From: a virus
IMG/VR virus record: IMGVR_UViG_3300033388_000404
Location: 1 to 32,467 of that record
Strand: one strand, 5' to 3'
Length of the DNA stretch: 32,467 bases
Shown piece after piece: positions 6,448 through 32,467 of the stretch; positions within the stretch are counted from its first letter, which is position 1; each line of letters starts with the position of its first letter. The notes under the pieces are model-generated. The model searched no databases, was not told the DNA's origin, and was given only the letters and a program-made list of their open reading frames with translations. Position numbers and translations under genes: made by a program.

Positions 6448-7071
6448 ATGTTAGACTTAAACAACGCAGAAATTAAAGCAGAAGGAAAATCAGGTAAATT
6501 CGACCCATCTAAAATCTTTGGTTACACAGTAGTAGAAGATAATCAAATCGTTAGAACGTTAGACAATGTGTTAATCTCTGGTTTTGAGACAGGAGAAACT
6601 AATACTGGTACTAAGTTTTTAGATATTAAACTTAAAGATACTTTAGGTAACGAAGCTAACATGAGAGAATATGAGCCAGACTCTACTAGACCTGACTTTG
6701 CTAAAAAAAGCACTAGTCAAATTACTAGACTGAAGCATATTCTTACTAAGTATGTACCTGAAGGAACTCCTCTTCCAGCTGCTGCAGATTTCCCTGCGTT
6801 ATGGGAAGGTGTTAAGCAAATGTTAATTGCAAATCAGTGTAACGCTAAGCCAGTTAGACTTAAGTTAGTTTATAATGATAAAGGTTATTTAACTGTGCCT
6901 AAATATGTACCGTTTATGGAACAAATGTCTATTCCTGTAGCAGATTCTAAACTTAGATTGAATCCTGGGTTTGACAGTTTAACTAGACCTATGGCAGATA
7001 AACCAGAAGCAGCATTTGGAGCACCAGCAGGAGCAGATGACGCAACAGATGACGGAGATTTGCCTTTCTAA
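6448..7071 (+). CDS. ssb: Single-stranded DNA-binding protein with acidic C-terminal tip
   Basis: The 207-aa protein ends in DDATDDGDLPF. This is the acidic tip ending in hydrophobic-Pro-Phe that bacterial and phage SSBs use to recruit partners. The body is consistent with an OB fold, with strands around NVLISGFETGETNTGTKFLDI and PVRLKLVYNDKGYLTVPKY, but the OB fold itself cannot be proven by eye. It would coat single-stranded DNA during replication and interact with the Sak4-like ATPase and primase. The gene lies directly before the primase gene, with no gap. The divergent body is usual for Bacteroidota phage SSBs. Confidence 0.75.
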   Translation: MLDLNNAEIKAEGKSGKFDPSKIFGYTVVEDNQIVRTLDNVLISGFETGETNTGTKFLDIKLKDTLGNEANMREYEPDSTRPDFAKKSTSQITRLKHILTKYVPEGTPLPAAADFPALWEGVKQMLIANQCNAKPVRLKLVYNDKGYLTVPKYVPFMEQMSIPVADSKLRLNPGFDSLTRPMADKPEAAFGAPAGADDATDDGDLPF

Positions 7072-7072
7072 G

Positions 7073-8119
7073 ATGATAGACTTAAATAATGCTAATACTG
7101 AAGACGTAGTATCCCGTGACCTTATCTTATCTAGAATAAGTGACGAGCAGATATTTAAGTATTACATTGGTGATTTTAAGTTAAACAAAGCTATGTGTAG
7201 CCCAATAAGGAAGGACTCAGTTCCTTCCTTTGGGTTATTCTATAGTACACATCATCAGAAGTTAATGTTTAAAGATCATGCAACCGGTGCATTCGGGGAT
7301 GCTTTCGACATAGTAAGACATATATTTAGTCTTACATTGTACGAAGCTTGTGTTAAGATTAATATTGATTTTAACCTTGGGTATAGATGCCCAGAAGGAA
7401 GAAAGGCTAAGTACGAGCCTGTCATTAAAGTAGCTAAACGTAATATTGATCTGCCTAACTCTAAACCGTTAGGAGTCAAGACACGTAAATGGAAACACTG
7501 TGATTATAACTATTGGACTGTAAAGTACGATGTTAACGAGAAACAATTAAAGTATTTTAATATACATCCCGTTGACAAAGTATTTTTAGGAAATGAAGTT
7601 ATATGGATTCATAGTGATTCTAACCCAATTTATGCTTATGTTTTTTATAAAGATGGTAAATACACTTACAAGTGCTATAGACCTCTAGAAAAAGATAAAA
7701 GGTATAAGTGGATAAGTAGTACTAATAGAACAGTACTACAAGGATGGGACCAGCTACCAACAACAGGAGATACTTTAATACTTACTAAATCATTAAAAGA
7801 TGTACTTGTATATAGAACTTTAGGGTTCTATGCACTAGCATGTCAGAATGAATTAGGAATGGTAAAGAATACAGTTATTGACGAGTTACGTAATCGCTTT
7901 AAAAGAATCGTTTTAAACAACGATTTTGATTATGCAGGTGTTACGGGAACAAACTTAATGCGAAAGGCTTATGAGCTGCCTTATTTCTTCTTACAAGACT
8001 TTAAAACAAGGTCGAACGGATTTAAAGATATATCCGACTTCAGGGAATGGCACTCCAAAGATGCCTCAATAAAATTAATTAATAATGAACTTAGAAAAAT
8101 ATGGAAATTCTTGTATTAG
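7073..8119 (+). CDS. DnaG-type primase with TOPRIM domain, no zinc ribbon
   Basis: The 348-aa protein has the primase N-terminal element CSPIRKDSVPSFGLFY (42-57) and GAFGDAFDIVRHI (72-84). A TOPRIM-like region follows: LILTKSLKDVL (235-245), NNDFDYAG (282-289) and KDISD (318-322). In textbook TOPRIM the first motif carries a catalytic Glu. Here that place reads TKSLKD, a variant I associate with Bacteroidota phage primases. No Cys/His zinc ribbon is present at the N terminus. I choose ATG 7073 rather than the in-frame ATG at 7016 because the earlier start would overlap the SSB gene by 56 bp and add no primase-like sequence. It would lay RNA primers for the DnaB-type helicase's fork. Confidence 0.82.
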   Translation: MIDLNNANTEDVVSRDLILSRISDEQIFKYYIGDFKLNKAMCSPIRKDSVPSFGLFYSTHHQKLMFKDHATGAFGDAFDIVRHIFSLTLYEACVKINIDFNLGYRCPEGRKAKYEPVIKVAKRNIDLPNSKPLGVKTRKWKHCDYNYWTVKYDVNEKQLKYFNIHPVDKVFLGNEVIWIHSDSNPIYAYVFYKDGKYTYKCYRPLEKDKRYKWISSTNRTVLQGWDQLPTTGDTLILTKSLKDVLVYRTLGFYALACQNELGMVKNTVIDELRNRFKRIVLNNDFDYAGVTGTNLMRKAYELPYFFLQDFKTRSNGFKDISDFREWHSKDASIKLINNELRKIWKFLY

Positions 8120-8442: not shown

Positions 8443-8707
8443 AGACTCGGCAGGACAAGACTTAGTACCTGGAGATATAGTATGCTCTAGTGCATCAGGT
8501 AGTAAAAATGTACTTCTTTATATATATGTAGGTAAAAAACGAATGTATAAATGCATGCCTTTTCATACAACTATAAATAAACCTTTTTTTAGATATAAAG
8601 AAACAGTAGTAAAAGTAAATATAGAAGAGTTAAAAAAGTCTGATAAACAATACGTAATAAAGTTATTAAAATTAAGAGAAGAAAAATATGGCAATTCAAG
8701 ATATTGA
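8432..8707 (+). CDS. Small beta-barrel-like hypothetical protein, 91 aa
   Basis: Residues 8-32 (GQDLVPGDIVCSSASGS, then VLLYIYVGK) resemble the VGDKV opening of the preceding gene, suggesting a second small SH3-like barrel. The C terminus is a charged helix (IEELKKSDKQYVIKLLKLREEKYG). It overlaps the preceding gene by 11 bp and the rIIA-like gene by 20 bp, so it is part of a coupled series. No function can be assigned. Confidence 0.6.
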   Translation: MKCKDSAGQDLVPGDIVCSSASGSKNVLLYIYVGKKRMYKCMPFHTTINKPFFRYKETVVKVNIEELKKSDKQYVIKLLKLREEKYGNSRY

Positions 8708-11385: not shown

Positions 11386-11409
11386 AAATAAAAATAAAAA
11401 TTTAAGACT
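11386..11409 (+). promoter_or_regulatory. A-rich leader of the rIIB-like gene
   Basis: The 24-bp gap consists of repeated AAAAT units followed by TTTAAGACT and the ATG. It has no Shine-Dalgarno sequence. The gene it serves is one of few here that does not overlap its upstream neighbour. Confidence 0.35.
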
Positions 11410-12582
11410 ATGATTACAATTAACTTAATGGGAGACTCAATTAACGGATCAGCTAACAACGAACAATTCGGTATTCCTTTTGACCAAGAGAAGTACGATG
11501 CAATGTTAGAGCTTCAAGAAGCAAGTAATAACGCAGCTACTCCTGCTGAATACCAAGAAATCGTTGCAGAGTTTCAAAAGTTACTAGTAGTAGACTATAA
11601 AAAAACAATAGAAAGTATTTGTCCTGAGATACACGTAAATAAAGCTACTGGAAAGCATTATTTAAAAGTAAAAGATAGAGTATCTTCAGTTGCAATGCCA
11701 GAAGCTTTAATAGATAGAATTAAAGACTCTATGGATAAAAAGATTGACTTTACTCCATTAATTAAACTATGGACTAGATGGTTAAGAAATCCTGTATTAA
11801 GGAGAAAGACAGCTGCTGGAACAGGAGAAAGATTTTCAGAAAAGATGTTTAATTATATTAATACTGACTTTACTAATTATGATTTAGTAGATAAATTAAT
11901 ATCTGAAAATGGATTAAGTAGAGATGTAGCTATTGAAAGAGCTACTACTAAGCAAGTAGGAATTACTGTAGAGGGATTACTTAGAACATTTAAAGTCTCT
12001 AGAGAATTACACCATAAATATGCATTAAACGATGACGGAGAAAAGATTCAAGTTCCAAGAAGAGGAGCTCAGTCTATTGACCCTGATACAGGTTTAATTA
12101 CTTATGAAGAGTTAGCTAACGAAGATAGATTATTCGAGCCTGCTGTTCAACGTAACAGCGGAGATGCATTCTACTGTGGAGATGTTAAAGGTCACTTTAT
12201 TAAAGTAGGTAAGTCTCATAGATTAGAATCTTGGAATCAAGTAAATACTAATGATGAAGTATCTTGTGTTAAAGGCCTTCACTGTGGTGGATTAGATTAC
12301 ATTAGAGGATACCAATATGAAGAGACTGAAACTCATAATGTACTAGTAGATCCAATGAATATTGGAGCTGTTCCTTGTGATGAATCAGGAGCTATTAGAG
12401 TATTAGAATACTTTGTATTAGATGCTTTTAGTGGTGTTAACGGTTCTATTTATCATTCTTCTACTTACGCATCTCAATCTGATGAAAAGTGGGAAAAGGA
12501 TAGAGAAGAAGTATTAAAGAACTTTGGAGAATTTAGAGCGGAAGTACAAGATCTACAAGAAGAAATAAATTCTTATGAGTAA
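11410..12582 (+). CDS. rIIB-like protein
   Basis: The 390-aa protein has the C-terminal signature I associate with rIIB-type phage proteins: GLHCGGLDYIRGY (289-301) followed by strands leading to VDPMNIGAVP (313-322) and IRVLEYFVLDAF. A middle region, FTPLIKLWTRWLRNP (114-128), matches the usual 'f..Li..w..NP' segment before a helix-turn-helix. T4 rIIB is about 310 aa, so this version carries an N-terminal extension of about 80-100 residues. It follows the rIIA-like gene by one ORF. The last eight bases overlap the RusA-like gene. Confidence is moderate because the family call rests on short motifs and context. Confidence 0.6.
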   Translation: MITINLMGDSINGSANNEQFGIPFDQEKYDAMLELQEASNNAATPAEYQEIVAEFQKLLVVDYKKTIESICPEIHVNKATGKHYLKVKDRVSSVAMPEALIDRIKDSMDKKIDFTPLIKLWTRWLRNPVLRRKTAAGTGERFSEKMFNYINTDFTNYDLVDKLISENGLSRDVAIERATTKQVGITVEGLLRTFKVSRELHHKYALNDDGEKIQVPRRGAQSIDPDTGLITYEELANEDRLFEPAVQRNSGDAFYCGDVKGHFIKVGKSHRLESWNQVNTNDEVSCVKGLHCGGLDYIRGYQYEETETHNVLVDPMNIGAVPCDESGAIRVLEYFVLDAFSGVNGSIYHSSTYASQSDEKWEKDREEVLKNFGEFRAEVQDLQEEINSYE

Positions 12583-17122: not shown

Positions 17123-20100
17123 TTAATAATTAATAACTTTATCTGTTTGAGAAGCTACTTTAGCAGGAATATTAACCATTGGAAATACTTTAGACCAATC
17201 TCTTAATAACCTTTCTTCATCATGCGCACTTCTGTTATCTGTTACTTCTACAGCTCCAGTCCCTTCTAATATATAGTTTCCTGAAGTTACAAGAGCTTTT
17301 TCAGCTTTTAGATAAGTATTAATCATAGGAAACGGATTAGATAATATTCTGTTAGCAGAACTAGGACTTAAGAAGAAAGTCATATCTGACTCTAATCTAT
17401 AAAGTTGATTTAACATTATGTTAGTAGCTGGTTTGTTTTCATCATCATCTCCAATAGCTTTAACAAGTACTCCTGCTGCCATAATACCTAAAGTGAATAC
17501 CATTTCAGCCATCATCTTTCTCATGTTAGCTTGATCTACTGCAGATAATCCAGTTAAAGCATCTTTGTTCATCATAGCCATTTTGAATAACGTTTTAACA
17601 CCTTGCTGTGCCGCTGTTCTATAATAACCTTTAGTCTTTCTACCTAAAGCTTCATTATATGCCTCACCTGCAAATCTTCTTTTTACAGACTCTGCTAGCC
17701 AGGATTTGAATTGAAGTCCTGCACGTCCTAGTAAATACCTTTTCATTAATGGGAAAGATGCAGGATCGTAGTTACCATGAACAACCTTGTTCAGCTCTAT
17801 TATATAATCCTGGAATTTCTTGAATTCAGAAAGCTCTCCTTCTTTATTAATATCTCCATTCCATCCTTTATTATCTCCGTACTCATCTACTTTCCAATTA
17901 CCCTCACTATCAAATGCTTCAAATAGAGATGTTTTAGTACCGTCTATTTTAGTAGCAGTTCTTTTTAACATAGAAGCTACCATTAACTGACCTTGTACGA
18001 AGAACTCTGATCGTCTTTGCATTTCGTAAGGAGTAAATTTAGATAATCCTACTTTCTTTTTAGGTCCTCCATTGTAAGCAGTTTCATCTACTTCAAATAA
18101 GATATCAAACTTATCCATTAAAGCAGCTACTTTTTTAGAAGTATCATTAGCAAACCCAGCACTTTTAGCAGTAGAGTTTAACATTATTCTATAAGCTTGC
18201 ATGGCTTGTTTAATGCTAAAATCTTCTCCTCCGGCAGCTTGTATTATGTTAGATATAAGACCAAATGTAATGTTATTAGTAGATGCAAATACGTTATATG
18301 CCATACCTTTTAATTGTGTAACTTTCATAAAAGTATCTGCTAAATCTACAGTAGTTACATGCCTAGCTCCCATTTCTTTTAACTCTTCTTCTATCTCTGC
18401 AGCTCTTTCAGAATGTTCTAGTTCAGTTATGTATCCATTTTCTAATTGATTGTTAAGCCTAGTTAATTCTCTATTAAGCTTAGTTGCTTTAGCAGAATTT
18501 TTTATATCCTTAGTCATCATTAGACCTGTACTTTCTCCTTGCTCTCTTTTATCTCCATATAAAGATGCTCTAATTGCATGATCAGCTGCCTTCTTTAAGT
18601 TAACTAATCCGTCTTTAACTTGGTATAGATTACCATCACTATCATAAGCTTTACCTCCACTAGCATTCATCTTTTGTTCTACAGCCTCATTAAGAAGTCT
18701 TTGCATAAGAAGTACAGTTTCTTCTGTTTTACTCTTATGGTTATAGTTTATAGAAGTCATAGCAAAAGATTGAAGTAACTTACCTAAATCTTTAGATCTT
18801 TCTTCTGGTTTTAGATCGCCTTCTATAAATGATATAGGAATACGTTGGTTTACTTTACCTGTAAATCCATCTCTATCACTACTTACTTTGTTACTAGTAG
18901 GAGAAGTTAATTCATCTACAAGTCCTTCAGCTATATTTCTTAAAGCTCCTTTAAGTCCATCTCTACTGTAAGAATCTAATAAACTTCTTTTAATAATAGG
19001 TAAGAAATTAGCCTGCATAAAAGGTAACTGATGTCTAGGTAAGTTATCCATAAATGATTCCATTCTTCCTTTGTAGAAATTATAGAACTCTTTTAATTCT
19101 GGGTTCTCTTGTATCTCTTTAAATTTAGAATCGTACCAAGTAGAACTTCCGTCTTTATTAAGTACAGATTTTTTAGGAGCCATAAGCACATATTTCCAAC
19201 CTGTAACAGTTACTTTAGGATCTCCATTGACTGCCCCATAAATACTTTTAGGATTATTAGTAATTCTCCAACTAAATAAATCTTTCTGAAGCATCTCTTC
19301 AGTATAACTATCGTCTACTTCTTTTCTAGCCTGGTAAGAGTCTTCAATAGCTTGATAATCTTCTAAATACTTAGAATATCTTCTTTCAGCCTCCTCTATT
19401 AAGTCTTTAGTTTTCTCTTCACCAAACTCAGCTTCTAGCATTTTAATATGCTTTTTAGACTCTGCGTTATTTGCTAAAGATCCATCATCTTTAAATAGTT
19501 TATTAGGGTCTATTATAACTTCATTTTCTTTAGACCAGTTAAAGTATGATAAATAGTTCTTATCTTTTTTAGCGGCTTTACGTTTAGCAGATCTAGTTTT
19601 GTAGTATGTTTCATCATACTCTACTACTAGGCCTCCAGTCCAGTTACCCTTTTCATCTTTCTGTAAAAACTTATCGTATCCATTTCTTTTAAACTCTTCA
19701 GTTTTTTCAAATGCTTTAATAGTGACATCTATAGATTGAGATTCATCATTAAATGCTTTATTAGTATCTCTAATAGATCTTTTTAATTTTTTATCTAAAG
19801 CTTGAATAAACTGATTATCTACAGAAGATAAATCCAATACTAAAGACTTACCTATACTTATATCTTTTATAGTGTTTATATGCGTATCTGATACAAGTCT
19901 AGATAGTTCTTTTTGAGCTTCTCTTATAGCTACACTTTTAGATGCATCTCTTACGTCTTTTAATAAATCATCTGATTTATTATGAATAGCTGCAATAGCT
20001 TCTTTAAATGAACCTCCTTGATCATACTCTTCACTAAATATATCTTTAGCATTTGCCCATACAGATAAAGTATCATAAGCATCGTTTATTTCAGCAGAAC

Positions 20101-23100
20101 TAATAGTAGTTTTACTTAACGTGTTAGATACCCATTCCATGTGAGAATCTGCAATAGCAGTAAGTGTCTTTAAACTGTTATCTAGTTTAAGTCTTTCTAT
20201 TTGATTCTCTAATCTATGTATACTTGCTTGTATAATAGCAGAATCTCCTTTATTCTCACTCATACTATTTTTATAGTTTCTAAGTTTACTTTCTAGCTTA
20301 GATATTAATACTTTAGTTGAATCTTGAATCTCATCAGTATCTAAATTAAAATCTGCTGCAGGTTTTACTTTAGGTTCTAACTTTACATTGTATGCATCTC
20401 CTTTAATTCTACTTCCTTTTTCTTTAGGTATTTTAGTATACATAGCCTTATATTTATCTCCATACTCTTTTTGAAATCTTTTATCTTTAGTATTAAGATT
20501 TTGAGCTTTTTTAAATGCTTGTTCGTATGTCATATTCTTATTAAGGCCAGAACTGTTTAATAGTTTATATTTAGACCTAAATACTCTATTTAGATTTAAA
20601 GGCTTTTTTGAAGAGAACTCAGTAGCAAATAACGAAGCATCAGCAGGCATTGACTTAGATTCATTAGAATTTAAATACCCAGTATTATCCACTAGTATTG
20701 CTGTATTTTTAATAGCTTCTGCTAAAACTGTTCCTTCTATATCATATTTAATACCTAATTTATCTTTAAGGTTAGTAAATAACTTGGCTACAATATCTTT
20801 AAACCTATCTAACACTGTCTTTTTACCAGTAAATTTTATATCAGATAGTATTTTTTGAAACTTATCGTTAGTCATAGTCATAGTAACAAACTCTTTACTG
20901 TTTATTAAACCATAATACTTATGATAAGAAGTACTTTTCATATCTGCTATAGCATCAGCAGCTCCTTTTGCGTCATTGTTTCTTTGAGCTTTTTTCATTC
21001 TATCAAATTGCTCTTTAAACTCATTAAACTCTGCAGCGTCTTCTTTATTTAGCTGTTTTATAGCTATGTTCATTAAAGCTTCTAATGACTTTACAGCTTT
21101 CTTCTGCGCTTCTGTTAAACGTTCACCTCCTCTATTATATTCATTTATAATATGAGAAGTGTAAGCATGTAAAGTTTCATGTAGTAAAGTATCTTCAAAC
21201 TTAGATACATTAGGCATTCTAGTCATATCTATAGTTAACACTGCTACATCCCCTTTCTTTTTACCTCCTGGTAATAAAGATCCTGAACCAGATATCTTTT
21301 TATTACGAAATGTCACATCCGGTAAACTATCCATCTTAGATAATAACATATCAGCTATTGCTCTATTTGCTTTAAATGTAGATTTATCTTTAATGTTATT
21401 TAAAGCTCTAGCAATTCCCTCTTTACCATCTCCATCATTTAATTCATATGATTTAAGCATATTAACATTAGCTTGATCATTAGGAATTCTTTCTTCTGTA
21501 TTTGGAGTGTTAGGAATACTAGTTAGCTTTTGTACAGTACTAACATTTCTAGATGCTAAAATAGATTTAATTTTAGAAGCTTGATAGTTATACTCTGTAA
21601 ACTGCATTTGCTTAGTGCCCCCGGCTGTATCTATTTGAACATAATCCATACCTCCTTTATTGTTAGTAAGCCCTTCATATAATTTAATTTCATTAGTATT
21701 TTCATCTCTTATATGTACAAATCTAGGGTATGATTTAGTTTCTTTACCCATTACATCTTTTTGAGGAATTATATGATTAATATACCCCTCATCTTCATAT
21801 TTACTTTCTGTTAGTCCAGGATATCTAAACCATCTACCTGATGCGCTTGGATGTGCTTCTGGAGTAACAGTTGGATTATGCTGTACATACTGAGTTAAGA
21901 AATTACCAGTTTCACCTCTAGCTCTATCAACAGCTTCTCCAAATCCAATGCTGTTTAAATAAGAAGTAGGTACAAATTTTAAGAAGTTAGTAGCTCCTTG
22001 ACTAGTTGCAGTTAAGTAACTATAAGTAATTAAATCTTTACCTAACTGTCTAGCTTCTAGGCTATCAGATATAAGCATGTCTATCATTCCTTTAATAGCA
22101 TTCTGCTCATCCATTCTAGCTCCTGTAGATGCTACATACTGTACTAAATCTGGCTCTCCTTTTACTTCAGCAGTTCTAGTTTTAATTCTTTGTAGTAAAA
22201 AGTTACTAGCTCCCCAAGTTTTAAAAGCCTCTTCTACTCTAGCAGCTAAAGAAGGATTCTCTTTAGTGTTAATAAGTAACCTTTGTCGTATTAGATCTAT
22301 ATCACCCTCTTCAAATATATTTTGTTTAGTGGTTATAAATCCGTTACGTGCTGTTCTTAATTTCTTTTGAATATCTAAAGGTACTTCTAACTTACCTGTA
22401 ATATTACCATACTCTAATACTGTATTTTGTATATTAGGAAAGAACCTTCCAAACAACTTTTGAGTAAGATATACACCTGATTCTACAGCTGTTCCTATTT
22501 CAGATTCAAGGTCAAATAAAGGACCTATTCCTTGTACTGGTAAACTTCCTCTAAATGTAATTTTATCTCCTTTATCTCTAGCCTCTATTAAATCTTTAGG
22601 AGCTCCTTTAGAATCAGCATTAATCATAGATTGTACAGCAGTTAAGGTTTCTCCTAAATCACTTAACTTTTCAAAGACTGATAACACTTTAAGCTGATTA
22701 GTAGCCCACTTAGCTCCTCCTTCATCCTCTTCTTTAATCATATCTAATAAAAATTCTGGAGTAAGTACAGTCATATCTGAAGATTCTGATGTAGATTGTA
22801 CATACCCTTCTGCCATTTTACTATACTTATTTCTAAGTCTTTCAAATGCTTCTTGTTTTTTATCTGCTACATATTGCTCTATAGTAGAATCATTTAAAGC
22901 TTCCATCTCTTTAACATAGTCTATAACTATTCTCTGAGACATTAATCTAGTTATATATTTAATATCTACATTTTTACCGTTTTTATTTTCTAATTGAGCT
23001 AATGCAGCTGCGGCACCAAATGTATTACCGTTTAAGTTAAGTTTATCTAGACGCTGTTCGTTAGCATTATCTACGGCAGCATTTTGAATATCTGCAATTA

Positions 23101-26100
23101 ACTGACTCTTAGGCCCTCTAGGATTTAAACCAACTCCACTTAATCTATGTAAACTATATTCTCCTATATTAATATATAACTTAGTTTCTATTCCTTTTTT
23201 TATAACAGAATGTCTTACATCTAATCCTTGAATAGTAGCATTAAATGTAGAAGCTAATGAAAGAACACCTACTCCTAATTTACCTGCCCTGTTTTGAATA
23301 AATGTATCTTGCTGGTACTGTCTGGATAACATAGAAGGTGTCTCTTTTCCAGAAGTTCTAATATCATTAATTAAATCTGCTTCTTTTTCTAAAGAATATT
23401 CTCCTTTTACATCTAATGGACTTAACACTCTAGGTAATACTTCTGGGTGAGTTAATACTTTCCAGTGTATATCAATATATTCGTTTTGTAATTCTTTTTT
23501 AAGCTTTGCTTTAGGATCTTTAACTAATTGATATACATCTTCGTTTTCTCCTGATATAACTTCTTTATATTGAGTATCAGCACCTTTAACTAGCTTACCA
23601 TCTTTTACATAGTAATTATAGTTATAAGTAGTCAATTTATCAACATCAAAATCCGATCCCATCTGAGCTGTAATATCATCAGGTACAATAACTAAATCTC
23701 CCATCTGTCTAGGTAAGAACCCTACAATCTCTATAGGTAACATAGAACTGTGCCCTTGGTTAGGGATACGAGCACCGATTAGGTTTAATAAGCTCTTATC
23801 CATTTTAGACTCATCTATGTATGTTTTACCCTCTTTAGTATAAGTATAGTCTTCTATGTTTAAAGTATTACCTTCAGCATCTCTAAAGTAGAAAGGAACT
23901 ATTAATTGAGCACCCTTAACTTTATTTTTACCTTTTCTAACAAACTGTAGACCTTTATCCATGTCTACATCTCCTACCCAAGTAATACCTTGTTTATTAT
24001 TCATACTCATTTCAGACCATTTCTTAGATTTAGTCTTATCAGTAATAAAACCAGCAGATGATCCTTGTACATATGATTTACCTGGCATCTTTTGTTTCAA
24101 GATAGTGTTAGTAATCATAGAAGTCATTAAAGACTCAAACTTATCAGAACTAGAAAGGAAACTAGTAGGTATTTTAAACTTCTTTTTATCTTCTGTAAGT
24201 TCTAACCCTTTAATGTCATTAATAGGAAAGTTTCTAGCTTTTGCCTCTCTTTCTAAAGCTTTTTTAAGTTTACTTAAATTTTCATAGCTATAAAAAACAT
24301 CTGGTAAAAACCCTTTAAGTTTAGAGTTTTTAATTTCTTTCACTCCTATCTTATCTAAAAGCTCTTCTCTACCCATATCGAATAATCTCTTACGGATAGC
24401 TTCTTTTCTTTGCTTAAGTTCTGACATTCCAGGAATATCCTCTATACCTTCAAATAAAAGTTTATTCATCTGAGATACAGTTAATACCTTAGTCTTATCT
24501 TCTTTATATGGCACTTCTTGCTGTATTCTAAATCCATCTCTTTTTAATTGAACAGCTTTACCTGTAAGATCAAACTTATCAGATACGTGATGATCATCCC
24601 ATAAGTCAACCATTCTAGTAGCACCTAGTTTAGAAGCAGATATATAACAAGCTCTCTGGATATCAGCATCTTCCATAGCAGCTCTAAGTTTATCTATTTC
24701 TAGGTCTTGAGTTAACTGTTTAAGTAATGGAAAACTAGAAGACTTAATATAAGTTACTTTATTAATCTTTCTTTTTTTATCCACTTCAGTATGAACATAT
24801 ACTGGCTTCATTGGCTGAAGGACTTTCTTAAGGTCTTCTTTATTTAAAGTGCCTTTATTTGCCTTATCTAATAAATCAGTATATTCAGCATCAGATAACT
24901 TACCATATGCTTTCATAACATCTAAATGCTCTTGAGCTGTAGTGTATTCCTGAGCATCTGCACCTTCAATACTTTTATATGTGCTTATCTTATCTGCATT
25001 ATTATCTAATATTTCTTTATACTCTTCTAAATGAATACTATCTGTTTCTTTATCATTTAAGAATATGTTATTATATACTTTCTTTTCAAAGTTACCATCT
25101 AACCCAGGAGCAATATCCTTGGCAAGACGTTTCTGAACTACAGTCATTGTAGTCTCAACATCATTTTTAAAGTGCATAGCAGGGTCTCCGGATACTAATT
25201 GCATAATATTAGCGTTAGCTATCATGTAGTTTACTTCTAAATCTATAGCTGCATACATAGCAAGCTCTAAGTCAGTTGCTGACCTACCTAGTTTAGACTT
25301 TACACCTCTAAGATAAGTACTATCCATTTTTAATGTAACTTTCTTAGCCTTATCGTCCATAGAGATTATACCACTATCATTAAACTGCTGAAATGTATTC
25401 TTAGATGTCTTTAAAACATAATCATATACTGCTTCAAACATAGCCTCTCTATTTTGTACTGCGTATGTACCATCTTCAAGCTTTAAAAGTGTTGCCATAT
25501 CGTTTAAAAATGGAAAGTGGTAGAATAATAAAGCACCTGTACCTTTCTTAGTTAAATCGTATCCTTTAATTCTATCTTTAGGATCTGCAGGATCTACATA
25601 AGCCTCTATTCTATCTATTTCAGACTGCACTAATTGCCTTAAAGCTTTTTTAGTATCTTTTCCTAATTGTGTCTTTCCTCCCCTTATAGAAATTTGAGTA
25701 TTATGTCTTAAAGAAGTTATAACCGGAGATGTAGTTTTATCTGAAATAGAAGGATATACAAAGTGAGATATCTTTCTAGCATCTACACCCTGCTCTCCTT
25801 GATCTTGATTCTGGAATAATGCAAGTGTTTGTACTAACATTTCTGAATCAGATTGGTTCTTTCTCTTAACACCTTTTTGCCCTGATCTACTTTTCTTTAA
25901 TCCATCTAAATAAGTTAATTTAAATGTATCTCTGAACTTCTTATTGTTCTTTATTTCATTAGCCCATATAGAATTTTTAGCGTAGCTAGTTTCTAATAAT
26001 GAGTCTAAAGTTTCATTTTCTCCATTGTTTTCTAGTAGTCTTCTAAACTGATGAGATATATGAGAATTTAATGAGTAAGAGTATATAGTCTTATCTTCAC

Positions 26101-29100
26101 TGTCTCTATGTGAAGTAGAATGGGCCAGTGAATCAAATTGAACTTTAAGATTAGCTAGTGTTTTTATACTAGTTCCTTCTTTATTAGCTCCTACTAATGG
26201 ATTATTTAATTCTAATAAAGACTCTTCATCTCCTTCTGCTTTATTCTCAGCATTTAAAGCATTACTTAAATGTTTAAATACACCTTCCACAAAATGGTTT
26301 TTAAATGATCTACCTGTTAGCCTTTCAGACTCTTCTTTAAAGAATTCTACAGCCTCTAATGGCATCGTAATACCAATACTTTCTAGAAGTTCTTGAGTTT
26401 CTTTTACATCTAAAGTTTCTTTTAGTTCTTCTACTTTAGCTTCAAACTCTTTAGCTTTCCCAGAATCAATTACTAATGCTCCTTTTACTTCTTTAACTAT
26501 TGGAGATTTCTTTTGATTTTCAAACCACTCGGCTTCAACTCTTTGAGCAGCATCATTTCTGTTAGTACTAATCGGTTGTAATACATATGCTCCTGTTCTT
26601 TTATCTATACTCCATAGTACTGTAACAAATGGATTATATTGCTTAGAGAACGCCACAACAAACTCATTTCTAATCTGGCTAGATGTCTTACTTTTATCAT
26701 CTAATACTTCTATAAGTTTACCTATGTATGGTTTAGTAGCTTTAGTTATATGTAACCTTTCAATCATACTCTCGTAATTAGGCTCTGTTCCAGATAACAT
26801 AGTCTGTAATTCATCATATACAGTATCAAATGGCATAAACTTATGAAGCCCTAATGGATTTCTACCCGGCATAGTCTGTAATGCCAAGAATAACTTAAAT
26901 CTAGCAGATGCAGTATCTTTATGATTAGTCTGGAATGTAGCACCGTCATCAAAGTTTACTTTTTCTAACATAGAATCTACGTTATCGTACCCTTCTAATA
27001 ACTCATCTATAGACTGTGGCTCTTTATTATCATCTATAGTTTGTTTAATACCAAAGATATTAGCCATTTTAACTTTAGAGAACTTAGCAAATTGGTCCCA
27101 GTTTCTCAATACTTTTTTATATTGATCTGATAGTTCATGAGCTTCATCTACAGTTTCTATTCCTAATCCCTTTTTTATTTGAGCTACTATAGGTTCTTTA
27201 CTATTAAACTTACTTGCTAATAGTTCTAACATTTGCTCACGTCTTTCAAACATGTCCTTAGCTACCTTTAAAGAGTCTGCAGCTGAAATACCTGCCTTAT
27301 CCTGCATAGCCTTAGACATAACGTGTATAACAGAATCTACAATCTCTTCCTGTAGGTATGAATTATAAAAAGTATCAGTTTCTTCATCATATACTAACAT
27401 ACCTTGTATGTCGTCTTTCATTAATACTTTAAACTCTTCAGCACGTCCTGCATCATCCGAACTTCTGTCTATAGTGTTAGAGTTTTCTACATCTAAATTA
27501 AGATCAGTATTATCTACATCTAGATTAAAATCATCAATGCCAAATAAATCTCCTGCCTGCTCAAGTACTTTTCTTTGTTCATCTGATAACGTTTCAGAGT
27601 CTCCCTCTGTTCCATCTACAGCAGGTATAGGTTCTTTAGATACCATTTCTTGAGGAGAAGCTTCTGTAAACGATGTACTAAATGTAATTCCAGGATGATC
27701 AAAATAGTTATCTTCAGTTTCATTAATCTTTGAAGCAACTACATCACTTCTTAAATTAGCTTTTAGATATTCATTATACGAACTAAATTGATTTTCATTT
27801 ACTTCACCTTCATTAGATATAGTAACCTCTTCAAACTTGTTTTCTTTATCGTTTATTTTAGATAACTGTACTGATATTAACTTTTTAGTTAAAAACTTTT
27901 TAAAGTCAGCTTCTTGTGATAATAGACCTTCTAAAGTTGTAATAGTTTTAATAGAGCCATTTTGAGATGCAAATAATATTTCTATAGTTTCATTGTTAAC
28001 TAATAAGTTTAAATACTTATTATTTGGATTTAAAGATTTATCTTCTATTGGTTTTTTAAAAGCCTTTTTCCCTTTTTTAGTAACGTGTGTATACTTATTT
28101 AAGAATGTAAATAGACCTTCTCCTGTTTCAATATTAATACCAGACTTTTCAAATACATCATCTATTACATCTGAGTTCTCAAAGAATGCTTTTACAGCAT
28201 TGTATATAGTATCTACTTGAACTTCAGTAGCTCTAGGAGTTTCTACATAAGTAGCCATAAACTTACCGTTAGGAGTAGGTAACATAGCGAATACCATACC
28301 ATTTAACTTTCCTTTTTGTAATGCTTCTTCAAACGCTTCTCCGTTAACAATATCTTTATTAAATGCTTCGTCTTTGTTTATATGAAGACTACCGTTTTTT
28401 ACAATAGCAAACGTTTCTAACTTAGGCATATTTTCTTGAATAGTTTTAGCTTTATAGCCTTTTGTACCCATGTTCACATCTCTTCTTAAATGCCCTACAA
28501 ACTTGTTATTAATTTCAGTTTCTACTGATCTATTTTTTACTATAAATTCTCTTACTTTTAAGTTTAATTCTTGTTGTATTATATGGTTTTCAAAGTATCT
28601 ATTATTTTTATCTTCAGATGTGTGAATATTATCTCTACCTCCCCCTTCTAATAATCTATCCTGGGTAGGAACATATGCAACAATCTTTCCATTTTTTTTA
28701 ATAGCAATAGGTACATTTCCTACATCTTCTACCCCATCTGTAACAAAGTCTGCATACCTTATAGTTACTTCTTTATTATCTTCATCTTTTTCTATCCATG
28801 TAGCTGACTTATCTACTTCTAATGTGATCTTATCTCCAGGTTGAAATTCTACAGCAGACTCTAGCTCCTTAACTAAGTTCTCTTGTTTTTCATTACTTGC
28901 AGCTACTTTTTTACCAGAAGGTGCTTTTATGTAATTTGTAGAAGCATATGCAAATGCACTACCTGCGTCTATAGTTTTAACTATAGTTTGTCCTTTATCT
29001 TCTTCTTTAGACTTATGTAGCTTTTTTAATGTATCGTTTTTACTTGTATCATTTAAATTAACTACTTCTCCATCTTCATACGTCTTAACAACATCTTCTT

Positions 29101-32100
29101 TAGACTCTATAGATTCTTTAGTAGACTCTTCAGCTTCAGTAGGAATCCATTCTTCTTCATTTCTTTCTTCAGTAATAGTTGTATGTATTGTAGTATCTAT
29201 AGCATCTTTTGGGTCTTTTCCTTTAGTAAAGAAAGTATCCATAAACTCTTCGGTCTCTTCCTCTTCTTCAGCTTTTTTATCTGCTTTTTCTTCTGCTTTT
29301 TCTTCTTCAGTTTTTTTATATATATTTTTAATTGGATTTCCTTGTCCATCTACACCATCTTCTATTCCCCTTAAAATTGCGTCTTTTTTAGCTTTATATT
29401 CAGCTACTATCTTTTGCTTTTCTTCTTCAGTTTCTGCAGCTTCTAACTTTTCTGTTTCCTCTTTGCTAAGAGCTTCCATCTCTTGTCCAGGTGTATCTTC
29501 TTCAGTCTTTTTAGGTTCTGCTTTAGGCTCTTTAGTTACTACAGGTTCAGCTTTAGGTTTAGCTTTAGGTTCCAGTGCTTCTAATTCTGCATTATATTTA
29601 GCGTCTATATTTTTACGAGATCTAGATAATCTAGTTAAATCTAAATTACCTTTCTTTATTCCTAAATCTAAAGCCTGTTTAAATATAACTTCAGGAATTA
29701 AACTAATATATGTACCATTACCTGAAATGCTTTTCATCACTTCTTTAGAGATCTCTTCGTTACTTAAGCCTTTTTCTTTTAAATCTAATGCTTTACTTTC
29801 AGCCTCTTCAAGTTCTTCGTTTATTTTTTTATGAAACTGTTCTATAGTTACACCTTTTCTTTTTAAAGTACTAGGAAGTTCTAATTCTGATACTCGTATT
29901 CCTTCTTTTTCAAGTTTTCTTCTTTTTTCTATATCAGCTTTTTTATCTTCTAATGAATCTACTTTAGCTTTAGGTTCTACTTTATCTGCTTTGGGTTCAG
30001 CCTTAGGCTCAGTTTTAGTTACTTCTTTAGTTTCTAATTCTACTTCTTCATCTTCTTTATTGTACTTATCTATTAAGGCACTTCCTTCTTTAGTACCTAT
30101 AGCATTTTTAAGTATATATTCTTTTCTATTCTCTCCTGAAAGAGTTTTAGCTCTAGCTTGTTTTAATTTAGATAAAGTACTTAAAAGTTCTTTTTCTCTT
30201 TTAGCTTCTAAAGACTCTTCAGTATTTTCAGTATCTTTCTTTTTAGAAACTTTACTTTTTAAAGCTTCAAACTTTTCTTTTATAGCAGACCTGCTTTCTT
30301 CTTCTTTAGTAGCTTTTTTATCGTCTTCTATAGCTTTAGCTTTATCTGCTTCTTTTTTATTCATATCAGCTTGCTTCTTCTTAGCGTCAGCTATATGCTT
30401 TGCTCTACCTGCATCAGATGTAAGAAACTCATATTGAAGATCTAATTGTTGTAGACTAGCCATGTCTTCTTCTATAGCTGCTTTAGCTGCCATTAAGTTG
30501 TTTACATCTATCTGATTATCTAATAGTGCGTTTGTTAAAGTTTCTGGTGTGTTTCCTTCTTCTTTTAAATACTCTTCAGTTCTTCTATCACTTTTTATTT
30601 TAATAGCTTTAGCTTTAGTTTCTAATGCTTTTCTTTGTCTTTCTAAGTTTTTTATACTGTGCTGTGTAATGTTATCTTTACCTTGAGGCATACCGTACAC
30701 ATCTTTAAGTACTTGCTTTCCAGAAATAGTTTTAGGATTAGGCCTTTTTAATGTTTCATTGTATTTCTGTTGCTCTGTACTTCTTATTTGTTTTTCTGTA
30801 TCTAGTTTTCTTTTCTTTCTTGAGTTCTTTTTACCTCTAGTATTCTTTTTAGATTTCTTTGTAAACTGACCGCCTTTCATTTTAGAAGGGTCTAAGTTAA
30901 AATCAGTAGCTGGTGGGTTTTTAAGAGATGCTATTTTTTCATTTATACTTTCAATTGCTAAATTAATAGCTTTTATGTTTTTATCAGCTGCTGCAATTTC
31001 TCCTGCAGTCATATCGGTACCCCTAGCTTCTTGTTCTTTTAAAGCATTATCTCTTGCCTTTTCAAACTTAGCTTTATTTAACTCAATTAGGTTTCTTAGC
31101 TTTCTCTTTTGTAAGTGCATACCAAATATATTCTCTGCATAGAAAGAAGCAGATGCTTCCTCATCAAATTCATTATATCTAGCTTGTATGTTTTCAAAGT
31201 CATCTGATAGAGTTTTAATCTCTTTTACTTTATCCTGGGCTCTCTTTTTATAATAGTTATCAGATTCTGGATCAATATCATATCCTAACTTTTCTGCTTG
31301 ATCTGCAGACATATTTGCTATTTCTTCATATATAGCAGACATATGCTCTTGCCCTCCATTAAGGAAAGAATTAAATAAACTGTTGTTAAATAAGTTCTCT
31401 TGAGCTTCTTGGTACTCTCTAGAGCCCCTATCTCCAGATGCATTTTTTAAGTTTTCTTGATTCCTTTGGTACTCATCTATATTCTTAATTAAGAAGTTCT
31501 TCTGGCTATTGAATATAGTTTCTTCTTGTTCTTTATTAGCTTTACCTGTTTTACGTAAAGATGTAACCATATGCTGGCCTCCACCACCTACTGCACCCAG
31601 GATACCAGCTAGAGCCGCTTCTTCTGTACCTAAAGCGTTTACGATAGCTTCTCCCATACTTTTAGCGCTGCTTATACCTAGAACATCTTCTCCTTGAAAA
31701 GTACCAGCAGCTGTAGCCGCTTCGTTTACAAGTTCTTCTAAACTCTCCTGTCCCATTTCAGATAGAGTAGTTTGTAATAAAGGACTAGTGTTATCAGCAT
31801 CTTTAAGTTCTAAACCTTTAAGTCTCTTTTGCCAAGTAGGTATATCATCAGAACCTTTTAATAAGGCTTTGTTCATTCTTTTAGTACTCTTAAGGTTACG
31901 CATTAACGCACCTGCAGAAGTAAAGTTTAAAGCGGAATTTACTACGGTGTTCATTCTAACAGCAGTGGCCGCTGCCTCGCCTGCTACTTTTTTAGCTTTA
32001 GCTGGATCGTTATACTTATCCATAGCTTTAGCGTATACATCTTTATATACTTCAGCACCTCCCATAGCACCTTCAACGTATGCAAGAGATGCAGCGGTTC

Positions 32101-32467
32101 CTGTTTGAGCAGCTACATTAGCAGTTTTAGCTAATGCTGCAGTTCCTTTAGCTATCCCTTCTGCTGTTTTATATCTTTTAACAAAAGCAGGTGCTTTCAT
32201 TAAAGCTTTAGCCATTGCTCCTGTACCTTTAGCTAAAAGGCTTCCAACTCCTGCACCGGTAACAGCAAATTCTCCAATAGACTTAACTAGACCTTCACCG
32301 TTTTCTACCCACCATGCAAAGTCTCCTAAGTCAAATACTTCATTAGGATTCTCTCTATATACAGGCATTGCTTCATCTAAAGCCTGTGTTCCTTTTTGAG
32401 CAAAGTCAGTAAGGAAGTTAGCATAGTCTCCACCTTCTCCAGTTAATGTTTTATAATGAGCTTCAAA
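17123..32467 (-). CDS. Giant multi-domain virion-type protein with RNA polymerase and metallopeptidase motifs (partial)
   Basis: One uninterrupted leftward frame of 15,345 bases. The frame stays open past the Met at 32366-32368 for 33 more codons of coding-like sequence up to the window edge, so the true start is outside. Residues below count from that Met. N-terminal: Gly/Ala-rich hydrophobic segments (about 30-64, 74-103, 245-264). About 270-1100: Lys/Glu-rich coiled-coil and low-complexity sequence with EPKAEPK-like linkers. About 2867-2910: an R-I-P element then DFDVD, as in the beta-prime active site of RNA polymerase. 3730-3734: HETLH, zinc metallopeptidase. About 4010-4400: charged helices and coiled coils. 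Near the C terminus: one hydrophobic helix (VFTLGIMAAGVLVKAIG). The layout fits a packaged, injected crAss-like transcription protein. Domain borders, other than the named motifs, are estimates. Confidence 0.92.
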   Translation of the reverse strand, partial: FEAHYKTLTGEGGDYANFLTDFAQKGTQALDEAMPVYRENPNEVFDLGDFAWWVENGEGLVKSIGEFAVTGAGVGSLLAKGTGAMAKALMKAPAFVKRYKTAEGIAKGTAALAKTANVAAQTGTAASLAYVEGAMGGAEVYKDVYAKAMDKYNDPAKAKKVAGEAAATAVRMNTVVNSALNFTSAGALMRNLKSTKRMNKALLKGSDDIPTWQKRLKGLELKDADNTSPLLQTTLSEMGQESLEELVNEAATAAGTFQGEDVLGISSAKSMGEAIVNALGTEEAALAGILGAVGGGGQHMVTSLRKTGKANKEQEETIFNSQKNFLIKNIDEYQRNQENLKNASGDRGSREYQEAQENLFNNSLFNSFLNGGQEHMSAIYEEIANMSADQAEKLGYDIDPESDNYYKKRAQDKVKEIKTLSDDFENIQARYNEFDEEASASFYAENIFGMHLQKRKLRNLIELNKAKFEKARDNALKEQEARGTDMTAGEIAAADKNIKAINLAIESINEKIASLKNPPATDFNLDPSKMKGGQFTKKSKKNTRGKKNSRKKRKLDTEKQIRSTEQQKYNETLKRPNPKTISGKQVLKDVYGMPQGKDNITQHSIKNLERQRKALETKAKAIKIKSDRRTEEYLKEEGNTPETLTNALLDNQIDVNNLMAAKAAIEEDMASLQQLDLQYEFLTSDAGRAKHIADAKKKQADMNKKEADKAKAIEDDKKATKEEESRSAIKEKFEALKSKVSKKKDTENTEESLEAKREKELLSTLSKLKQARAKTLSGENRKEYILKNAIGTKEGSALIDKYNKEDEEVELETKEVTKTEPKAEPKADKVEPKAKVDSLEDKKADIEKRRKLEKEGIRVSELELPSTLKRKGVTIEQFHKKINEELEEAESKALDLKEKGLSNEEISKEVMKSISGNGTYISLIPEVIFKQALDLGIKKGNLDLTRLSRSRKNIDAKYNAELEALEPKAKPKAEPVVTKEPKAEPKKTEEDTPGQEMEALSKEETEKLEAAETEEEKQKIVAEYKAKKDAILRGIEDGVDGQGNPIKNIYKKTEEEKAEEKADKKAEEEEETEEFMDTFFTKGKDPKDAIDTTIHTTITEERNEEEWIPTEAEESTKESIESKEDVVKTYEDGEVVNLNDTSKNDTLKKLHKSKEEDKGQTIVKTIDAGSAFAYASTNYIKAPSGKKVAASNEKQENLVKELESAVEFQPGDKITLEVDKSATWIEKDEDNKEVTIRYADFVTDGVEDVGNVPIAIKKNGKIVAYVPTQDRLLEGGGRDNIHTSEDKNNRYFENHIIQQELNLKVREFIVKNRSVETEINNKFVGHLRRDVNMGTKGYKAKTIQENMPKLETFAIVKNGSLHINKDEAFNKDIVNGEAFEEALQKGKLNGMVFAMLPTPNGKFMATYVETPRATEVQVDTIYNAVKAFFENSDVIDDVFEKSGINIETGEGLFTFLNKYTHVTKKGKKAFKKPIEDKSLNPNNKYLNLLVNNETIEILFASQNGSIKTITTLEGLLSQEADFKKFLTKKLISVQLSKINDKENKFEEVTISNEGEVNENQFSSYNEYLKANLRSDVVASKINETEDNYFDHPGITFSTSFTEASPQEMVSKEPIPAVDGTEGDSETLSDEQRKVLEQAGDLFGIDDFNLDVDNTDLNLDVENSNTIDRSSDDAGRAEEFKVLMKDDIQGMLVYDEETDTFYNSYLQEEIVDSVIHVMSKAMQDKAGISAADSLKVAKDMFERREQMLELLASKFNSKEPIVAQIKKGLGIETVDEAHELSDQYKKVLRNWDQFAKFSKVKMANIFGIKQTIDDNKEPQSIDELLEGYDNVDSMLEKVNFDDGATFQTNHKDTASARFKLFLALQTMPGRNPLGLHKFMPFDTVYDELQTMLSGTEPNYESMIERLHITKATKPYIGKLIEVLDDKSKTSSQIRNEFVVAFSKQYNPFVTVLWSIDKRTGAYVLQPISTNRNDAAQRVEAEWFENQKKSPIVKEVKGALVIDSGKAKEFEAKVEELKETLDVKETQELLESIGITMPLEAVEFFKEESERLTGRSFKNHFVEGVFKHLSNALNAENKAEGDEESLLELNNPLVGANKEGTSIKTLANLKVQFDSLAHSTSHRDSEDKTIYSYSLNSHISHQFRRLLENNGENETLDSLLETSYAKNSIWANEIKNNKKFRDTFKLTYLDGLKKSRSGQKGVKRKNQSDSEMLVQTLALFQNQDQGEQGVDARKISHFVYPSISDKTTSPVITSLRHNTQISIRGGKTQLGKDTKKALRQLVQSEIDRIEAYVDPADPKDRIKGYDLTKKGTGALLFYHFPFLNDMATLLKLEDGTYAVQNREAMFEAVYDYVLKTSKNTFQQFNDSGIISMDDKAKKVTLKMDSTYLRGVKSKLGRSATDLELAMYAAIDLEVNYMIANANIMQLVSGDPAMHFKNDVETTMTVVQKRLAKDIAPGLDGNFEKKVYNNIFLNDKETDSIHLEEYKEILDNNADKISTYKSIEGADAQEYTTAQEHLDVMKAYGKLSDAEYTDLLDKANKGTLNKEDLKKVLQPMKPVYVHTEVDKKRKINKVTYIKSSSFPLLKQLTQDLEIDKLRAAMEDADIQRACYISASKLGATRMVDLWDDHHVSDKFDLTGKAVQLKRDGFRIQQEVPYKEDKTKVLTVSQMNKLLFEGIEDIPGMSELKQRKEAIRKRLFDMGREELLDKIGVKEIKNSKLKGFLPDVFYSYENLSKLKKALEREAKARNFPINDIKGLELTEDKKKFKIPTSFLSSSDKFESLMTSMITNTILKQKMPGKSYVQGSSAGFITDKTKSKKWSEMSMNNKQGITWVGDVDMDKGLQFVRKGKNKVKGAQLIVPFYFRDAEGNTLNIEDYTYTKEGKTYIDESKMDKSLLNLIGARIPNQGHSSMLPIEIVGFLPRQMGDLVIVPDDITAQMGSDFDVDKLTTYNYNYYVKDGKLVKGADTQYKEVISGENEDVYQLVKDPKAKLKKELQNEYIDIHWKVLTHPEVLPRVLSPLDVKGEYSLEKEADLINDIRTSGKETPSMLSRQYQQDTFIQNRAGKLGVGVLSLASTFNATIQGLDVRHSVIKKGIETKLYINIGEYSLHRLSGVGLNPRGPKSQLIADIQNAAVDNANEQRLDKLNLNGNTFGAAAALAQLENKNGKNVDIKYITRLMSQRIVIDYVKEMEALNDSTIEQYVADKKQEAFERLRNKYSKMAEGYVQSTSESSDMTVLTPEFLLDMIKEEDEGGAKWATNQLKVLSVFEKLSDLGETLTAVQSMINADSKGAPKDLIEARDKGDKITFRGSLPVQGIGPLFDLESEIGTAVESGVYLTQKLFGRFFPNIQNTVLEYGNITGKLEVPLDIQKKLRTARNGFITTKQNIFEEGDIDLIRQRLLINTKENPSLAARVEEAFKTWGASNFLLQRIKTRTAEVKGEPDLVQYVASTGARMDEQNAIKGMIDMLISDSLEARQLGKDLITYSYLTATSQGATNFLKFVPTSYLNSIGFGEAVDRARGETGNFLTQYVQHNPTVTPEAHPSASGRWFRYPGLTESKYEDEGYINHIIPQKDVMGKETKSYPRFVHIRDENTNEIKLYEGLTNNKGGMDYVQIDTAGGTKQMQFTEYNYQASKIKSILASRNVSTVQKLTSIPNTPNTEERIPNDQANVNMLKSYELNDGDGKEGIARALNNIKDKSTFKANRAIADMLLSKMDSLPDVTFRNKKISGSGSLLPGGKKKGDVAVLTIDMTRMPNVSKFEDTLLHETLHAYTSHIINEYNRGGERLTEAQKKAVKSLEALMNIAIKQLNKEDAAEFNEFKEQFDRMKKAQRNNDAKGAADAIADMKSTSYHKYYGLINSKEFVTMTMTNDKFQKILSDIKFTGKKTVLDRFKDIVAKLFTNLKDKLGIKYDIEGTVLAEAIKNTAILVDNTGYLNSNESKSMPADASLFATEFSSKKPLNLNRVFRSKYKLLNSSGLNKNMTYEQAFKKAQNLNTKDKRFQKEYGDKYKAMYTKIPKEKGSRIKGDAYNVKLEPKVKPAADFNLDTDEIQDSTKVLISKLESKLRNYKNSMSENKGDSAIIQASIHRLENQIERLKLDNSLKTLTAIADSHMEWVSNTLSKTTISSAEINDAYDTLSVWANAKDIFSEEYDQGGSFKEAIAAIHNKSDDLLKDVRDASKSVAIREAQKELSRLVSDTHINTIKDISIGKSLVLDLSSVDNQFIQALDKKLKRSIRDTNKAFNDESQSIDVTIKAFEKTEEFKRNGYDKFLQKDEKGNWTGGLVVEYDETYYKTRSAKRKAAKKDKNYLSYFNWSKENEVIIDPNKLFKDDGSLANNAESKKHIKMLEAEFGEEKTKDLIEEAERRYSKYLEDYQAIEDSYQARKEVDDSYTEEMLQKDLFSWRITNNPKSIYGAVNGDPKVTVTGWKYVLMAPKKSVLNKDGSSTWYDSKFKEIQENPELKEFYNFYKGRMESFMDNLPRHQLPFMQANFLPIIKRSLLDSYSRDGLKGALRNIAEGLVDELTSPTSNKVSSDRDGFTGKVNQRIPISFIEGDLKPEERSKDLGKLLQSFAMTSINYNHKSKTEETVLLMQRLLNEAVEQKMNASGGKAYDSDGNLYQVKDGLVNLKKAADHAIRASLYGDKREQGESTGLMMTKDIKNSAKATKLNRELTRLNNQLENGYITELEHSERAAEIEEELKEMGARHVTTVDLADTFMKVTQLKGMAYNVFASTNNITFGLISNIIQAAGGEDFSIKQAMQAYRIMLNSTAKSAGFANDTSKKVAALMDKFDILFEVDETAYNGGPKKKVGLSKFTPYEMQRRSEFFVQGQLMVASMLKRTATKIDGTKTSLFEAFDSEGNWKVDEYGDNKGWNGDINKEGELSEFKKFQDYIIELNKVVHGNYDPASFPLMKRYLLGRAGLQFKSWLAESVKRRFAGEAYNEALGRKTKGYYRTAAQQGVKTLFKMAMMNKDALTGLSAVDQANMRKMMAEMVFTLGIMAAGVLVKAIGDDDENKPATNIMLNQLYRLESDMTFFLSPSSANRILSNPFPMINTYLKAEKALVTSGNYILEGTGAVEVTDNRSAHDEERLLRDWSKVFPMVNIPAKVASQTDKVINY
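20339..20353 (-). repeat. DFNLD linker motif, copy 3
   Basis: DFNLD at residues 4006-4010 (KPAADFNLDTDEIQDS), between the metallopeptidase region and the C-terminal coiled-coil region. Confidence 0.6.
21167..21181 (-). other. Zinc metallopeptidase motif HETLH
   Basis: HETLH (residues 3730-3734) follows a strand (VLTIDMTRM) and a helix start (FEDTLLHETLHAY), as in zincin peptidases. About 95 residues later NSKEFVTMTMT offers a Glu (20891-20893) as the likely third zinc ligand, a spacing common in phage and mobile-element polyvalent proteins. Confidence 0.65.
23639..23653 (-). other. RNA polymerase beta-prime-like active-site motif DFDVD
   Basis: Asp residues 2906, 2908 and 2910 (counted from the Met at 32366-32368) form the D-x-D-x-D metal-binding loop. 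Upstream, ARIPNQGHSSMLPIEIVGF parallels the RAP segment and following strand of E. coli beta-prime. The distance from the Arg (23768-23770) to the first Asp is 39 residues, against 35 in E. coli (R425 to D460). The Gly of the classic DFDGD is replaced by Val. Confidence 0.75.
27518..27532 (-). repeat. DFNLD linker motif, copy 2
   Basis: DFNLD at residues 1613-1617 (FGIDDFNLDVDNTD). A close variant, DLNLD, follows four residues later (27491-27505), giving a local double copy in an acidic linker. Confidence 0.6.
29497..30030 (-). repeat. Low-complexity EPKAEPK-type repeats in the giant protein
   Basis: The coding strand repeats the pattern E-P-K-A in two clusters, near 29960-30030 (TEPKAEPKADKVEPKAKV) and near 29497-29580 (EPKAKPKAEPVV, KEPKAEPKK). 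These should form extended, stiff linkers between helical segments. Confidence 0.65.
30890..30904 (-). repeat. DFNLD linker motif, copy 1
   Basis: DFNLD at residues 489-493, in a Pro/Ala linker (NPPATDFNLDPSKMKGG) just before a very basic Lys/Arg stretch. Confidence 0.6.

Follow-up and report, generated by a model that had tools for sequence, protein, structure and literature searches.

The closest described systems to the locus analyzed here are the virion RNA polymerases (RNAPs) of crAss-like phages, which are dominant in the human gut virome. In phi14:2 this cargo is encoded in three ORFs in the order g067-g066-g065 (1,797, 2,180, and 1,421 aa), all annotated as virion proteins from mass spectrometry (MS). 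In crAss001 there are also three proteins, gp47, gp50 (the RNAP), and gp49, with the gp47 gene on the opposite strand, and MS found all three in the virion (PMC10172136). The crAss001 tail has constrictions under 50 Å, so the cargo must partly unfold, and disulfides stabilise the tail (PMC10172136). How three huge proteins exit in order through a channel of less than 50 Å and then cooperate in the host is left open by that study. The size of a giant crAss RNAP alone is not new: RNAP genes of these phages reach ~6,000 aa (reviewed in PMC10136315), their multidomain transcription blocks have been published (PMC7886860), and there is a published precedent for fusion of a virion RNAP (vRNAP) to large proteins (PMC10770324).

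Annotated phages join two of the three portions, and the combination varies. The giant RNAP proteins of p-crAssphage (gp44/gp45), cr273_1 (gp35/gp36), and cr1_1 (gp076/gp077) range from 4,000 to 5,800 aa. A long upstream part is fused to the RNAP in cr273_1 gp35 (5,794 aa), cr1_1, cr4_1, and FpV4, and the RNAP is fused to the gp49-type part in p-crAss gp44 (4,070 aa). Read with table 11, the giant ORFs of cr273_1 (L009) and cr4_1 (L010) are interrupted by 36-38 in-frame standard stops, which is expected if a phage has reassigned stop codons. Gp32 of the Fipvunavirus FpV4 (4,287 aa), which scored highest among annotated homologues (25% over about 1,500 aa), holds the RNAP and a zincin region in one long protein, as in our locus; its gp49-type part is separate (gp33), and the split carries ...NCN and MAC. 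The gp96 protein (TMP-vRNAP) of Thermus phage P23-45, 5,002 aa long, also combines an RNAP with a metallopeptidase and membrane parts (PMC10770324). It too has no Cys, but it is the tape measure of a long-tailed phage, with an N-terminal and only remotely related RNAP. The vRNAP of phage N4 is a T7-type single-subunit RNAP of unrelated fold. Although this protein (gp50) is likewise giant, virion-packed, injected, and Cys-free, it is one protein with no joints; the absence of Cys from the vRNAPs of N4-like phages has been attributed to passage through the tail or periplasm (PMC3715699, PMC3915230).

The window analyzed here is the whole 32,467-nucleotide contig of IMG/VR record IMGVR_UViG_3300033388_000404. 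Its primase matches place it among the crAss-like phages. The plus-strand neighbors form a replication block (DnaB-type helicase, Sak4-like ATPase, primase, and PDDEXK nuclease), and the transcription block is convergent with it, as in Crassvirales and as for the early genes of phi14:2. Placement in Crassvirales rests on the primase and this layout; the crAss MCP, portal, TerL, and tail ring proteins are not on the 32 kb contig. The replication block also holds RIIA-like (HATPase) and RIIB-like genes (8688-10838 and 11410-12582, plus strand).

The minus strand carries one open frame at exactly 17123-32467, 5,114 codons and a stop. Base composition predicts 451 stops in it (probability of none ~1e-205), and the other five frames contain 161-858 stops each, so the stop-free stretch of 15,345 bases in the preliminary description, which gave no strand, is real. 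The ORF is truncated where its 5' end runs off the contig edge, with ~140-150 N-terminal residues estimated to be absent by alignment to the closest loci (L012). A Pfam scan of the ORF gave no RNAP domain above cut-off, and its sole PHROGs match was phrog_16227, 'virion structural protein'. The features are as follows.

17123..32467, minus strand: giant ORF, a near-certain fusion of crAss001 gp47-, gp50-, and gp49-type virion cargo (HMM)
31568..32431, minus strand: region A, residues 13-300, Gly/Ala-rich N-terminal region (iterated HMM, E 1e-22 to 4e-64)
29018..31270, minus strand: highly charged linker, residues 400-1150 (composition)
27599..29038, minus strand: conserved C-terminal part of the gp47-type portion, residues 1144-1623 (aligned to L012 ORF1 974-1481)
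27131..27598, minus strand: fused joint 1, residues 1624-1779, no Cys, DFNLD at 1646 (alignment to L012/L013)
25727..27025, minus strand: region B, N-terminal part of a gp66/gp50-type RNAP, residues 1815-2247 (HMM)
24647..24649, minus strand: sole Cys codon of the giant ORF, C2607 (sequence)
23177..25024, minus strand: region C, RNAP catalytic core, residues 2482-3097 (iterated HMM, profile, model)
23762..23770, minus strand: RIP element, residues 2900-2902, R and P invariant in 54/54 relatives
23639..23653, minus strand: DFDVD catalytic motif, residues 2939-2943, three Asp invariant in 54/54 relatives
21851..22714, minus strand: region D, C-terminal part of a gp66-type RNAP, residues 3252-3539 (HMM)
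20768..21265, minus strand: region Z, zincin-like, residues 3735-3900 (HMM, conserved HETLH)
20222..20725, minus strand: fused joint 2, residues 3915-4082, no Cys, DFNLD at 4039 (alignment to L012/L013)
17168..19270, minus strand: region E, gp49/g065-type RNAP-associated portion, residues 4400-5100 (HMM)
30904-30890, 27532-27518, and 20353-20339, minus strand: DFNLD at residues 522, 1646, and 4039, possible processing or docking motif
7016..8119, plus strand: DNA primase (listed matches are crAss-like phages; the tally includes Flavobacterium (Fipvunavirus) phages)

The middle third of the giant ORF is, with near certainty, a crAss-like, single-chain virion RNAP of the gp66 type. The ORF matched phi14:2 gp66, the crAss-like virion RNAP whose structure has been solved (PDB 6vr4_A), in a single-sequence phmmer search (E 1.9e-26), and a 54-member profile aligned with 6vr4 along about 1,130 positions (E 3.5e-203), showing homology. 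Region B corresponds to gp66 201-668 (E 3e-63) and region D to gp66 1718-2008 (E 4e-37). A model of the core (residues 2380-3540; pLDDT 86.3, pTM 0.85) superimposed on residues 871-2015 of 6vr4 with Z 28.3 and rmsd 2.7 Å over 966 residues, an alignment that predicts two double-psi barrels in one chain. The next structural matches were the RNAi polymerases QDE-1 and RDR2 (Z about 11-16), with the RNAPs of phages P74/P32/P23-45 at Z 9-10.5. The R-x-P element and DFDVD motif first pointed out in the preliminary description are both present, RIP 39 residues upstream of DFDVD, and the block that holds them is conserved across the crAss-like RNAPs compared, phi14:2 gp66 among them. Residues R2900, P2902, D2939, D2941, D2943, K2944, K2554, K2575, and K2613 are identical in 54/54 aligned relatives. 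Neither outcome that had been named as fatal to the polymerase claim, no barrel at DFDVD in a confident model or an Asp triad that varies among homologues, was found. The polymerase does lie inside a far longer protein, as had been claimed, but crAss RNAPs of longer or similar size were already known. Because it sits mid-chain (residues 1815-3539), within gp47/gp50/gp49-type cargo, the protein is not of the tape-measure-fused vRNAP type. By analogy with its homologues the enzyme would be packaged in the virion and act on early genes (PMC10172136, PMC10136315).

It is almost certain that the giant ORF as a whole is a three-way fusion of the gp47, gp50 (RNAP), and gp49 types. Regions A, B-C-D, Z, and E are colinear with gp47/gp50/gp49 of crAss001 and g067/g066/g065 of phi14:2; the correspondence to g067 is one of gene position, as region A matched gp47-type proteins and not g067 itself. 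Region A is common to crAss001 gp47, p-crAss gp45, cr85_056, and Dulem41_A (iterated HMM), and Gly/Ala make up 30% of the N-terminal ~200 residues. It is followed by a stretch (residues 401-1200) in which D/E/K/R amount to 37-44%. Region E matches FpV4 gp33 (E 8e-129) and crAss001 gp49 (E 5e-105). The preliminary description had missed that the three fused parts make up the full set of RNAP cargo proteins, as well as the cysteine pattern described below.

Region Z contains HETLH (HExxH) at residues 3763-3767 (window 21181-21167). In 37 relatives the E and second H of this motif are invariant and the first H is conserved in at least 90%; E200 (alignment numbering; window residue 3859) is nearly invariant and is a possible third ligand. 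In phi14:2 the region forms the N-terminal part of g065, and in FpV4 the C-terminal end of gp32 (iterated HMM). A PDB fold search with a model of the zincin region (pLDDT 77) gave no match with E under 0.001. Of the protease-like and membrane-active parts proposed earlier, the former finds a counterpart in this conserved HExxH adjoining the RNAP, but the latter is weak, as a single segment, residues 4987-5005, has a mean hydropathy above 1.4 over 19 residues.

A single-sequence query matched none of the IMG/VR relatives, and an alignment query gave 80 loci. The arrangement seen most often among them joins A-B-C-D-Z and leaves E as its own ORF. Complete single-ORF chains of 4,739-5,646 aa occur in eight other contigs (L020, L026, L032, L039, L055, L065, L079, and L088). 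In the window's nearest rows on an 85-row core tree, L012 and L013, the chain is split into three ORFs, and at both joints that are fused in the window these relatives show a stop and then a new start. Fusion is labile at both joints, with at least 10 state changes on the tree at joint 1 (a count that takes in the break inside the RNAP of L059, L064, and L067, joint 1 being scored as fused by length alone where region A was undetected) and at least 13 at joint 2. In most phages with split genes the neighbors adjoin, with overlapping or near-touching ends. One locus has a 164-aa ORF at the joint between the RNAP and gp49-type genes (L085:13901-14392).

The split relatives carry a terminal Cys at nearly every inner end and are otherwise nearly Cys-free. 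The window chain has one Cys in 5,114 codons, and none occurs across the 41,092 residues of the eight other complete fusions, where about 271 would be expected; the window's own plus-strand genes contain 1.0% Cys. In 75 de-duplicated loci, all downstream proteins at splits (71/71) begin with M.{1,4}C, counted from inferred start codons, and 63 of 71 upstream proteins have a Cys within the last four residues. At the outer ends of the chain the N-terminal pattern is found in 0/46 first proteins and the C-terminal pattern in 0/59 last proteins. Control ORFs from the same contigs show these patterns in 17/213 and 19/213 cases, and Fisher values for such counts ignore kinship among loci and are not exact. 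Internal Cys of chain proteins number 70 in 393,607 residues (0.018%) versus 0.66% in control ORFs. The two cultured phages exhibit the same distribution. The only Cys of the three phi14:2 proteins are C1797 of g067 (the last residue), C3 and C2179 (of 2180) of g066, and C3 of g065, all at inner ends, unlike the window, where one ORF lacks Cys at the joints. In crAss001 the only Cys of gp47 is C2339 of 2341 and that of gp49 is C5.

Gut loci added once the rule had been framed (L092-L118) conform by inspection, apart from L117, which is frame-broken and uninformative. The RNAP block of L117 is broken into several frames, with one break inside GSDFDVD, by assembly error or recoding. The RNAP ORFs of L092-L118 are richer in internal Cys (up to 24 per ORF), and Cys depletion is thus looser in gut crAss lineages. 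The gp47-type proteins of crAss001 and L101 still end in Cys although their genes are not on the RNAP strand; gene adjacency is therefore not the cause. The eight upstream ends (of 71) that have no Cys among the final four residues mostly carry one slightly further in; the RNAP of L068 and the first ORF of L086 have no Cys near the C-terminal end.

Additional splits follow the same pattern. In L053 (about 10960-11440), L059 (11062-11538), L064 (11011-11504), and L067 (11017-11502) the virion RNAP gene is interrupted between regions B and C by an inserted gene for a ferritin-like protein of about 157 aa (Pfam Ferritin E about 3e-12 in the two loci tested), and the new RNAP ends carry Cys on both sides. 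The unsplit relative L023 has a single terminal Cys, besides one residue before the likely start. An intron at this RNAP-internal break was considered and rejected, since Rfam gave no match and the break contains the ferritin-like gene. L069 encodes a further chain member of 1,168 aa, placed between the RNAP and E and missed by the HMMs, with exactly two Cys, one per end (MASC... and ...NCK). The N-termini of downstream proteins (L012-L118) show recurring small modules, CPN..EW, CxY..G..Y, and CSI..NGKES..L[FY], which differ between related phages and resemble docking domains. Where the chain is in three ORFs, its two modules usually belong to different types (small numbers, with hand-drawn classes), and different modules at each joint would be needed for correct order.

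Full fusion in some phages and Cys only at the joints in split relatives, phi14:2 and crAss001 included, point to one continuous threaded chain. We consider it probable that the complete virion RNAP cargo is here held in one chain, that its continuity is under selection, and that Cys joints stand in for the peptide bond elsewhere. Cargo order would be the gp47-type part, the gp66/gp50-type two-barrel RNAP, the zincin-like region, and the gp49-type part. Its virion homologues in phi14:2 and crAss001 suggest that the chain would be packaged in the head and pass into the host by threading, in a partly unfolded state, through the narrow tail; the core would then transcribe early genes there. Selection appears to keep the chain continuous. 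Where the cargo is split, the terminal Cys may pair head-to-tail in the virion as disulfides or another Cys-Cys link, so that the pieces would leave as one ordered chain and be freed by reduction in the host cytoplasm. In the fused form a peptide bond would replace the joint disulfide, and the joint Cys are absent. If stray Cys do harm in such a chain, those confined to inner ends probably serve a purpose, and head-to-tail joining is the simplest one, explaining their absence from outer ends and fused joints. Delivery as a single chain with Cys joints is, on these grounds, fairly likely. We also lean towards the more general view that crAss-like cargo is ejected as one covalent chain, in which fusion and disulfide joints formed in the virion and reduced in the host would be interchangeable. 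Virions assemble in the cytoplasm, a reducing compartment, and cargo disulfides would therefore have to form late. Our literature search found no reported disulfide between crAss cargo proteins; Bayfield et al. analyzed reduced and non-reduced crAss001 virions by MS, and we found no statement there on cargo links. Nor did we find mention of the Cys rule, in a search that excludes Yutin 2018 and Drobysheva 2021. If the proposed joining is real, it would be a reversible linkage of giant proteins for delivery, for which we found no earlier description.

Terminal Cys might instead serve metal binding, lipid attachment, homodimer disulfides, or non-covalent docking, with the RNAP proteins exiting separately. 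The recurring N-terminal modules of the downstream proteins could indeed dock unaided. One Cys per end, the usual number, is however insufficient for a metal site, and neither homodimers nor lipid attachment would predict Cys on both partners of a joint and never at outer ends. A new split, at the ferritin-like insert, also comes with a new Cys pair, and we regard these other roles as unlikely.

The giant ORF could also be a polyprotein, cut at its linkers by the zincin-like region or a virion protease before or after packaging, the fusion then having no mechanical meaning. Its linkers are long, charged, and poorly conserved, the identical DFNLD occurs in three of them, including both fused joints, and the HExxH of region Z keeps its E and second H throughout the relatives. 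But relatives lack DFNLD at the corresponding places, on which ground we rejected it as a general cleavage motif, and the zincin region has no detectable match among solved structures. Cleavage would moreover leave the restriction of Cys to the inner ends of split relatives unexplained, which makes a polyprotein quite improbable.

Reading the Cys codons as a junction signal, in RNA or for translation coupling, would suit the adjoining or overlapping ends of most split genes, but TGT and TGC both occur at joints, the spacing varies (1-4 residues from the start, 0-3 from the stop), and the opposite-strand genes of crAss001 and L101 still end in Cys; largely because of these last cases we rejected this explanation, which has very little chance of being right. 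A fortuitous DFDVD, or an RNAP fold that is absent or inactive, would fit the Pfam result but runs against the 6vr4 profile match, the confident model, and the invariant catalytic residues, and its probability is close to nil.

Large ORFs of 650-970 aa are found just upstream of the block, for example L039:2-2902 and L053:546-3251, and are mostly Cys-free. Upstream ORFs of the L039:2-2902 type occupy the position of crAss cargo C2.
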